Assembly (NCBI RefSeq): GCF_003076755.1
Contig: NZ_QDKM01000001.1
Span: forward strand, 1-64,000
Reading direction: 5' to 3'
DNA: 64,000 nt
From: Pararhodobacter oceanensis
GTDB lineage: Bacteria > Pseudomonadota > Alphaproteobacteria > Rhodobacterales > Rhodobacteraceae
Part shown: positions 46,902-48,654 of the stretch, in pieces
How positions within the stretch are numbered: the first letter of the stretch is position 1
Layout of the letters: every line of letters begins with the position of its first letter
Notes under the pieces: model-generated
What the model was told of the DNA's origin: nothing
What the model saw: the letters and a program-made list of their open reading frames with translations, nothing else
The model's database searches: none
Made by a program: the position numbers and the translations under genes

Positions 46902-47681
46902 CTAGGCGGTTTGCAGGACCGTATCGCAATGGAAATCCACGATCTCCTGAATTTCCGCGCGCGAGGCGCTGGTCGGATCGATCTCCCATAGCGCACGCAG
47001 CCGTGCCAGCAACAGGCGCACGGTGTCGACGGGGGCGGAAGCCTCGGGCAATTGCCAGCGGCCATGGACCGGATAGCCGGAGAGCGCGGGTAAATCCTCG
47101 GCTGCGACCTCGCCCAAGGTGATCACGATATCCATCACCGGCGCGTCGGGGCCGGTGAAGAGATCGAGCGATTTCGACCACAACACGCCGGCTTGAAACC
47201 CCTGTTCCTCAAGCATCGCAAGCACCTCGGGGTCAGGCTCGGAGGCCGCATGAAGCCCCGCCGAGAAGACCTCGAACCGCTCACCCGCAAGGGTGCGAAA
47301 GGCGGCTTCGGCCATCAGACTGGCGGTGGAGTTCTGATGGTCAACAAACAGCAAATTGCGGATGCGTGGCCCGGCAGCGGACAATTCAGGCAGCCCGCGC
47401 CCCTGACACAGATCGCCAATCCATGCCGTGTTGAAACCAGCCAATGCCTCGGGCACGATGGAATACAACAGCGAGGTGCCGCGCCGCTCTTGCGCGATCA
47501 GACCGGTCTCGACCAGTTGCGCAAGATAGCCCGAAAGCGTGCTGGGTTTGAGCCCGAGCCGCGCGCCAATCGCTCCTGCGGCCACCGGCGCGGGATGCTG
47601 GCGGACCAGCAAATGCATGATCTGCAGGCGTTGCGGATGCGCGAGGGCCGCGAAAACGGGCACGAGATTATGTTCCATCAT
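46902..47681 (-). CDS. ArsR-type regulator fused to a degenerate ArsC domain
   Basis: A 259-residue fusion. Residues 1-95 form a winged-helix ArsR repressor (PVFAALAHPQRLQIMHLLVR, GARLGLKPSTLSGYLAQLVE). Residues 107-255 align with low-molecular-weight phosphatase/arsenate reductase, but the P-loop CxxNxxR is replaced: it reads LFVDHQNSTAS, with Asp114 at the cysteine position and Ala120 at the arginine. The second cysteine region reads VITLGEVAAED, also without Cys. It cannot reduce arsenate and may act as a ligand-sensing domain. Start is ATG 47681 or 47678. No arsenic resistance genes are adjacent. Confidence 0.82.
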   Translation of the reverse strand: MMEHNLVPVFAALAHPQRLQIMHLLVRQHPAPVAAGAIGARLGLKPSTLSGYLAQLVETGLIAQERRGTSLLYSIVPEALAGFNTAWIGDLCQGRGLPELSAAGPRIRNLLFVDHQNSTASLMAEAAFRTLAGERFEVFSAGLHAASEPDPEVLAMLEEQGFQAGVLWSKSLDLFTGPDAPVMDIVITLGEVAAEDLPALSGYPVHGRWQLPEASAPVDTVRLLLARLRALWEIDPTSASRAEIQEIVDFHCDTVLQTA

Positions 47682-47820
47682 AAGCGAAATACTGCACTGC
47701 AGAATGCATGGCAAGATTTTTCTGCATCGCAGCAATCGCAAACTGCTGCCGATCCCGCCACTGTGGCAATTGCTTGACGCGCCAATCGTGTTAGCCTGCG
47801 CCAAACAAAGGGAGATCCGC

Positions 47821-48654
47821 ATGTCACGCACCGCAACGCAATCCATCGGCGACGCCGAAGTGGTCATCCTGACCGACGGCGGCCTTGATTTCGGCACCGA
47901 GCTATTTCCCGGCACCAGTGAGGCGCATATCGCCGAACTGCTGACTGCGCAGGCGGCCAATGCGATCGCCACGAATTTCAACGCGGTGCTGATCCGCACT
48001 GCGCGCAACACCATCCTTTGCGACGCCGGTCCGCGTGACCTGTTTGGCCCCACCTGCGGTTTTCTGCCCGACGCGCTGCGCGAAGCGGTGGCGGCGCCCG
48101 GCGATATCGACACGCTCTATGCCACGCATTTACACCCCGATCATATCGCCGGGATGATCACCCCGGAGGGCGCGGCGGTGTTTCCCAATGCCGAACTGGT
48201 GGTCAGCGAGGCTGAGCACGCCTTCTGGAGCGACGCCGCAAATACCGACAACCTGCCCGAGCCGATGCCCGATTGGGGTGCTTTGGCGCGGGCGGTTCTG
48301 GCGGCTTATGCCGACCGGCTGCGGATAGTCTCGGGCGGTGGCGAGATCGCGGCGGGGCTGCATATCCTGCCGCTCGCGGGTCATACGCCGGGGCATGGCG
48401 GCTGGCGGCTGGAGAGCGGGCGCGCGCAATTGCTGCATACCGGCGACATTATCCACGCCCCTGTCCTGCAGGCCGCCGATCCGAATATCGCGATTGCCTT
48501 TGACATGGACGCCGACACCGCGCGCGAGACGCGCAAACGGCTGCTCGATGAATTGGCCAGCGACGGGGCGCTGTTCACCGGCGGGCATTTCCTGCATCCG
48601 GCATTTCATCAGGCGGTGCGCGACGGGGATGGCTACCGGTTGGAGCGCCCGTAA
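47821..48654 (+). CDS. MBL-fold metallo-hydrolase
   Basis: A 277-residue metallo-beta-lactamase-fold protein. The metal site is ATHLHPDHIAG (His103, His105, Asp107, His108), with further ligands in LAGHTPGHGG, LLHTGDIIH and TGGHF. No signal peptide, so it is cytoplasmic. Closest in layout to lactonase/quorum-quenching-type members, but the substrate cannot be read. A GGGAG site precedes ATG 47821. It is divergent from the ArsR-ArsC fusion with 139 bp between, so it is a candidate target of that regulator. Confidence 0.88.
   Translation: MSRTATQSIGDAEVVILTDGGLDFGTELFPGTSEAHIAELLTAQAANAIATNFNAVLIRTARNTILCDAGPRDLFGPTCGFLPDALREAVAAPGDIDTLYATHLHPDHIAGMITPEGAAVFPNAELVVSEAEHAFWSDAANTDNLPEPMPDWGALARAVLAAYADRLRIVSGGGEIAAGLHILPLAGHTPGHGGWRLESGRAQLLHTGDIIHAPVLQAADPNIAIAFDMDADTARETRKRLLDELASDGALFTGGHFLHPAFHQAVRDGDGYRLERP

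Follow-up and report, generated by a model that had tools for sequence, protein, structure and literature searches.

Pseudo-ArsRC: a conserved subfamily of ArsR-ArsC fusions with a catalytically dead reductase domain and apparent control by the PHB regulator PhaR

What role is left to an arsenic repressor when the arsenate reductase domain fused to it has lost its catalytic residues? The question is raised by a gene, here termed pseudo-ArsRC, in a 64,000-nucleotide stretch of the Pararhodobacter oceanensis genome (hereafter the window). Its open reading frame on the minus strand (46902-47681) comprises 259 codons when read from the ATG at 47681; the ATG at 47678 is the likelier start, because eight other dead genes of this type begin with MEH, MDH or MEP. 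The gene so defined (46902..47678, minus strand, stop included) encodes a protein of 258 residues beginning MEHNL, with a wHTH domain at residues 8-92 in the MEH numbering (47403..47657, minus strand), which contains KPSTLSGYLAQL, and a dead domain of the ArsC/LMW-PTP fold at residues 106-233 (46980..47363, minus strand). Pfam recovers HTH_20 and HTH_5 above cutoff and LMWPc with 34.1 bits (cutoff 23.2), and the NCBIfam profile NF033788 (HTH_metalloreg) scores 58.3 bits (cutoff 55), confirming the ArsR-ArsC architecture proposed in the initial annotation. The former P-loop (47322..47342, minus strand) reads DHQNSTA, with D114-HQNST-A120 replacing the C-x5-R signature of the thioredoxin-type ArsC (Cys to Asp, Arg to Ala), and the region of the former second cysteine (47094..47123, minus strand) reads ITLGEVAAED, with G190 at the position of the second cysteine of its relatives. 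Both readings agree with that annotation, as does the 139-bp gap to a divergent MBL-fold hydrolase gene, which becomes 142 bp when counted from the preferred start.

A structural model of the window protein, built from an alignment with 14 relatives, has a mean pLDDT of 85.9 and a pTM of 0.59; the block 111-120 reaches 94 and the linker at residues 93-104 is poorly defined. The model of a P-loop-intact sister (L071) has a pLDDT of 90.7 and a pTM of 0.88. The C-terminal part of the window model aligns with the ArsC of pI258 (VIA-align, Z 17.5, rmsd 1.9, 125 residues), which places it in the LMW-PTP fold of the thioredoxin-type ArsC, and the N-terminal part with AfArsR (6j05; Z 15.2, 95 residues). 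The earlier proposal that the ArsC fold survives around the dead site is thus borne out, as far as a predicted model can do so.

The residue comparison covered 55 fusion homologues, namely 41 "ars-type" rows (those outside the clade linked to the MBL gene), four P-loop-intact, one half-dead and nine dead members of the MBL-linked clade. Left out were L062-L071, taken to be copies of L006-L015 on account of their equal identity and position, L021, which is truncated at a contig end, and L028 (G017:C1:3617750-3618457), which has an in-frame TAG within the match and is the second fusion in its genome. In the ars-type rows the P-loop Cys (Cys1), the Arg, Cys2 and the Asp are each present in 41/41 and Cys3 in 40/41, versus 0/9 for each of the five in the dead rows, confirming the loss of catalytic residues suspected from the window copy. 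The two further redox cysteines of the thioredoxin-type ArsC, which we take to be Cys82 and Cys89 in the pI258 enzyme, are accordingly at 0/9 and 0/9. The P-loop Asn and a loop Ser/Thr are kept in all nine dead genes. Eight of these share the loop GxxNAGP(S/T), with Gly and Pro at the former Cys and Arg positions; the window copy (DHQNSTAS), with Asp and Ala there, deviates from it. The intact rows (L014-L017) have Cys1, Arg, Cys2 and Asp in 4/4 and Cys3 in 0/4, and in the half-dead L018 Cys1 is the sole survivor of these five, with Arg changed to Leu and Cys2 to Ser.

The As(III) site was placed by aligning one ars-type fusion to 6j05 (CCRGRPDLC versus CCHGTRD-C), the three aligned cysteines of AfArsR being, we presume, its As(III) ligands. 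The first, second and third cysteines of this triad are present in 34, 32 and 30 of the 41 ars-type rows; the dead rows retain the second alone (9/9; Cys91 in the window protein), and the third is found in none of the four P-loop-intact rows of the MBL-linked clade. Given that the CC...C triad is broken as well, arsenic is an unlikely ligand of pseudo-ArsRC, in support of a doubt already voiced in the initial annotation. Since the intact rows already lack Cys3 as well as the last cysteine of the triad, the arsenic-linked features seem to have been lost first and the P-loop afterwards. Separately, six paralogues in the genus (L020, L024-L027 and L029) have a complete ArsC active site and none of the three triad cysteines, and a different sensing site is therefore expected in them.

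Within a sample of the family, 165 of 295 genomes contain a match to the fusion at E 1e-25 or better; plasmid records gave 24 matches at E 1e-30, all below 60% identity among the matches listed. The MBL-linked clade itself was found in 14 of 18 genomes of one genus, probably Pararhodobacter, with carriers that appear to include P. zhoushanensis, P. aggregans, P. marinus, the strains CCB-MM2 and SW119 and, besides several MAGs, a record under the label Rhodobacter sp. Nine of these genomes have the dead version (L001, L006-L013), one the half-dead (L018) and four the P-loop-intact version (L014-L017); G008 contains only a fusion fragment truncated at the end of a contig, and no MBL-linked fusion was found in G003, G006 and G014. 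The dead fusions form a single clade (support 100/98, tree of 39/55 fusions), outside which branch L017, then L014 with L015, then L016 and then L018, the last on a long branch that makes its position less certain. The initial annotation had held that close relatives retaining the Cys and Arg would imply a recent inactivating change in one strain. Such relatives do occur, in four genomes, yet they fall outside the dead clade, which argues that the residue loss is old and shared; inactivation in a single strain is rejected, and the dead P-loop marks a conserved subfamily present in nine genomes.

The four intact genes and the half-dead one all have this MBL hydrolase gene as their divergent neighbour. 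At the intact loci (4/4) the order is MBL | arsRC-gapdh-arsJ, and at E 1e-60 none of the four genomes has an arsJ match other than the one at this locus; gapdh likewise lies within the locus in 35 of the 41 ars-type rows. At the ten dead or half-dead loci no gapdh or arsJ match, and hence no arsRC-gapdh-arsJ operon, was found beside the gene in flanks of 7-13 kb (eight loci) or 3.7-3.8 kb (the window gene and L018). Eight of these ten genomes encode arsJ elsewhere, in seven of the eight on the contig of an ars-type fusion, and no arsJ match was found anywhere in G005 (85% complete) and G017. The window genome has its single arsJ match on contig 13, together with an ars-type fusion and gapdh. 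The earlier statement that no ars genes are near thus stands for the window locus and fails for the four relatives with an adjoining gapdh-arsJ pair. On one side, hemE and dusA are present at the window locus and at the six dead loci with sufficient flanks (L063-L065, L067, L069 and L070). Judged by these gene neighbourhoods, pseudo-ArsRC is an orphaned arsenic repressor-reductase, since the intact four head arsRC-gapdh-arsJ, the dead and half-dead versions lack it, and most of the latter genomes have arsJ at another place.

The divergent neighbour (47821..48654, plus strand) encodes an MBL-fold hydrolase of the AidB/OPHC2/dihydrocoumarin-hydrolase-like kind with an HLHPDH motif, whose structural relatives include 7y7u, the organophosphorus hydrolase 4le6, the dihydrocoumarin-hydrolase ancestor 5hif and methyl parathion hydrolase; with the AidB lactonase profile NF047979 it scores 198.6 bits, below the cutoff of 360. 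It adjoins 13 of the 14 fusions and, being their common neighbour, is the best candidate for a target that pseudo-ArsRC would repress. The MBL partners of eight dead genes form one clade (100/99), and those of the intact genes and of the half-dead gene fall into one group (91/91), which also includes three MBL genes beside which no fusion was seen; the MBL tree does not repeat the ladder of the fusion tree. The one exception to the pairing is CCB-MM2 (G004, L063), in whose genome no MBL match was found and the dead fusion is kept beside hemE; the stretch from hemE to the fusion (L063, 5880-6000) is without an MBL gene and its PhaR box is imperfect. Conversely, G003 and G014 have kept the MBL gene with no adjoining fusion, and the contig of G006 ends at the MBL gene. 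On the MBL side of eight gaps no conserved operator was found, dyads with 5-bp arms being common to at most two of them. A second MBL paralogue, 60% identical, lies away from the fusion in another genome (G009:C2:50966-51781).

The gap between the two genes (47682-47820) does carry a conserved palindrome, whose match is to the box of PhaR and not to the operator of an ArsR protein. CTGC-N3-GCAG is the PhaR site of R. sphaeroides in the parts of PMC12542648 and PMC3206438 that treat it, and the former describes PHB as drawing PhaR off its target promoters. Two such boxes lie 30 bp apart upstream of pseudo-ArsRC (47692..47702 and 47722..47732). A consensus scan of this promoter detected no -35 or -10 element; by eye, a putative -35 TTGCCA (47709..47714, minus strand) sits between the two boxes and is separated by 17 bp from a putative -10 TATTTC (47686..47691, minus strand), so that the first box lies between -35 and -10. 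The phaP promoter of the same genome (phaP named by eye) has two boxes 29 bp apart. CTGC-N3-GCAG occurs in 8 of 13 gaps between fusion and MBL gene, those of six dead genes, L014 and L015, versus a mean of 0.07 and a maximum of 2 gaps in 2000 draws under a first-order Markov null; it thus precedes six of the eight dead genes with an MBL partner, or six of all nine. The exact box was not found at L008, L012, L013, L016, L017 and L018, nor within 60 bp upstream of any of the 41 ars-type genes, and only one of 13 loci in other genera has it upstream of the MBL gene (L109, 242 bp upstream). The 4.08 Mb window genome has 144 short boxes (40 for the reversed pattern), so that about 0.005 would be expected in a 139-bp gap, and the pseudo-ArsRC gap has two.

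The longer palindrome ATNCTGCRSYGCAGTAW has 15 places in 13 of the 18 genus genomes, and its reversed control has none. Six of the 15 are at dead fusions, three in phaZ-phaC gaps, three near MaoC/ribF, two in purU-like/exoD gaps and one elsewhere (assigned partly by eye; phaC/phaZ by Pfam in L125, by eye in L117 and L122). In the window genome it is found solely at the pseudo-ArsRC promoter and in the phaZ-phaC gap, about 2.7 kb from which lies a phaR gene; the genome thus combines the box in this promoter with the regulator itself. On this evidence PhaR, the regulator of carbon storage as PHB, appears to control pseudo-ArsRC and would bind at the two boxes. The palindrome was also considered as the operator of pseudo-ArsRC itself; this was rejected because it marks phaZ-phaC or other genes in genomes without a dead fusion (G003, G006, G013 and G014).

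Other placements of these sites deserve a record of their own. The palindrome that separates a purU-like formyltransferase gene from exoD in two genomes (L113 and L118, site at 1501; genes by Pfam in L118 and by eye from likeness in L113) may mark a new PhaR target, and in two other loci it precedes a MaoC-domain (PhaJ-like) gene (L115 by Pfam and L121 by eye, site at 1501), the ribF neighbour of these two loci being shared by L120. In the window genome, two short boxes 19 bp apart lie near what by eye is a LysR-type regulator gene (G000:C1:201800-201829, L129).

A different element characterizes the ars-type genes, 34 of 41 of which have a dyad WTTC-N10-GAAW within 60 bp upstream, presumably their operator. 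In the MBL-linked clade it is kept only by L016 and L017, and it was not found in the 60 bp upstream of any of the nine dead genes. A TTC-N10-GAA dyad spans the start codon in eight of the nine dead genes, its left half in the window lying within the putative -10. It could be a shifted operator or could reflect mere -10 spacing plus codon 2, and because the GAA doubles as codon 2 we treat it as a lead.

Selection on the two domains was estimated by the Nei-Gojobori method on gene pairs, with the ArsC part and the HTH taken separately. For the ArsC part dN/dS is 0.142 and 0.150 in the close dead pairs L010/L011 and L012/L013 and 0.127 in the intact pair L014/L015, with corresponding HTH values of 0.087, 0.097 and 0.078; the C-terminal tail has higher values in all three pairs (0.22-0.26). 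By these codon comparisons the dead domain is under purifying selection in close pairs. The distant dead pairs (L007/L010, L006/L009 and L001/L006) have ratios of 0.16-0.47 in the two domains at a dS of 0.65-1.45, which we regard as weak evidence for looser constraint. The reading frame is open in all nine genomes with the dead version, and the evolutionary rate of the fusion far exceeds that of the MBL enzyme (window end branch 1.13 versus 0.19).

Taken together, the subfamily is real and old, and the most likely working model is that of a metalloid-blind regulator dosed by PhaR, in which the pseudo-ArsC domain has either a structural or a sensing role. The explanation that we favour, with moderate confidence, is a pseudoenzyme regulator blind to metalloids, supplied in a PHB-dependent dose and probably controlling the MBL gene. 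Its ancestor would have been the ArsR-ArsC fusion of an arsRC-gapdh-arsJ operon divergent to the MBL hydrolase gene. One line of the genus, most members of which have arsJ elsewhere, would then have lost gapdh-arsJ at this locus after it had a further ars operon, or because it had one. The fusion, freed from arsenic, may next have been left with one As(III)-site cysteine of the three and with none of the ArsC catalytic residues, both folds and, apart from the single exception seen, the place beside the MBL gene being kept. Today it would act as a wHTH regulator; since its promoter has lost the ars-type dyad and carries PhaR boxes, its expression is predicted to follow PHB, the protein being made, like the phasin PhaP, when PHB granules draw PhaR off the DNA. 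Most likely it would repress the divergent MBL gene and possibly itself, the pseudo-ArsC domain serving as a rigid dimer partner or as a pocket for a small molecule.

Among more specific readings, a possible one, though we would not bet on it, makes the dead domain a structural or dimerisation remnant in a constitutive, inducer-free repressor or autorepressor whose dose is set by PhaR. The known sensing and catalytic residues are gone from a fold that is kept, and the promoter boxes and the dyad over the start codon fit such a regulator; the GAA of that dyad, however, is the second codon and possibly meaningless, and a mere remnant could be lost, yet the domain is kept in 9/9. More doubtful is a ligand-sensing role, in which the rebuilt loop binds a metabolite, for example a lactone or a hydroxyacid related to the MBL substrate, and thereby relieves repression. 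Conservation of the loop Asn and Ser/Thr, the loop common to eight of the nine, purifying selection in close pairs and a neighbour of the lactonase/hydrolase kind speak for this reading, but the loop of the window copy differs from the consensus and the MBL gene and fusion are not always together. A complete rewiring of the arsenic sensor-enzyme to carbon storage, with PhaR setting the dose and the rebuilt ArsC pocket reading such a metabolite to switch the lactonase-like gene, and with the intermediate steps surviving in one genus, strikes us as unlikely. It is quite improbable that the gene, left over from the lost operon, is in slow decay and without function today: the stepwise loss of residues and operon partners, the long branches and the distant-pair dN/dS of up to 0.47 would accord with decay, but the frame is open throughout, close-pair dN/dS is 0.09-0.15 in both domains and the promoter boxes are conserved in six of nine. 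Arsenic sensing through another site, despite descent from arsRC and the one triad cysteine kept in 9/9, is very hard to credit with the other two site cysteines and WTTC-N10-GAAW absent from all nine dead genes and no gapdh-arsJ at their loci.

One genus displays a series from an intact operon through loss of partners to a half-dead and then a dead but conserved domain, that is, an enzyme domain becoming a pseudoenzyme inside a repressor. This makes it testable how a metalloid sensor changes its signal and its network, and the PHB (PhaR) regulon gains a predicted regulator gene. Among the open-licence PMC literature matches listed there was no report of an ArsR fusion with a dead ArsC domain or of an ArsR-type gene under PhaR.

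ArsR-ArsC fusions as such are already known, as described in portions of PMC6205960 and PMC6514093. Those of arsRC-gapdh-arsJ operons, e.g. on pDE of Cereibacter sphaeroides 2.4.1, where the annotation has gapdh and arsJ after a gene of the ArsR family, share domain order and, by the tree, common descent with pseudo-ArsRC, four sister loci of which keep gapdh-arsJ; unlike these fusions, it has no catalytic residue, a broken triad, no gapdh-arsJ and no ars-type dyad, and PhaR boxes instead. With AfArsR (PDB 6j05), an As(III)-responsive repressor, it shares the wHTH fold and keeps one of the three cysteines. The thioredoxin-coupled ArsC proteins (pI258, 1jf8/2cd7; B. subtilis, 1jl3; D. indicus, 8p5n) and LMW-PTP are alike in fold (Z 14-17.5); the pseudo-ArsC domain keeps the loop Asn, Ser-Ala-Gly and Lys positions, whereas C-x5-R, the two further cysteines and the Asp of the DP motif are gone. 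The neighbouring MBL protein resembles AidB lactonase, OPHC2 and dihydrocoumarin hydrolase over nearly its whole length, though below the cutoff of NF047979. The promoters controlled by PhaR (phaP and phaZ-phaC) have their counterpart in the putative paired CTGC-N3-GCAG sites, at phaP-like spacing, of pseudo-ArsRC, with the difference that the boxes of phaP and phaZ-phaC precede PHB genes whereas those described here precede the gene of a regulator.
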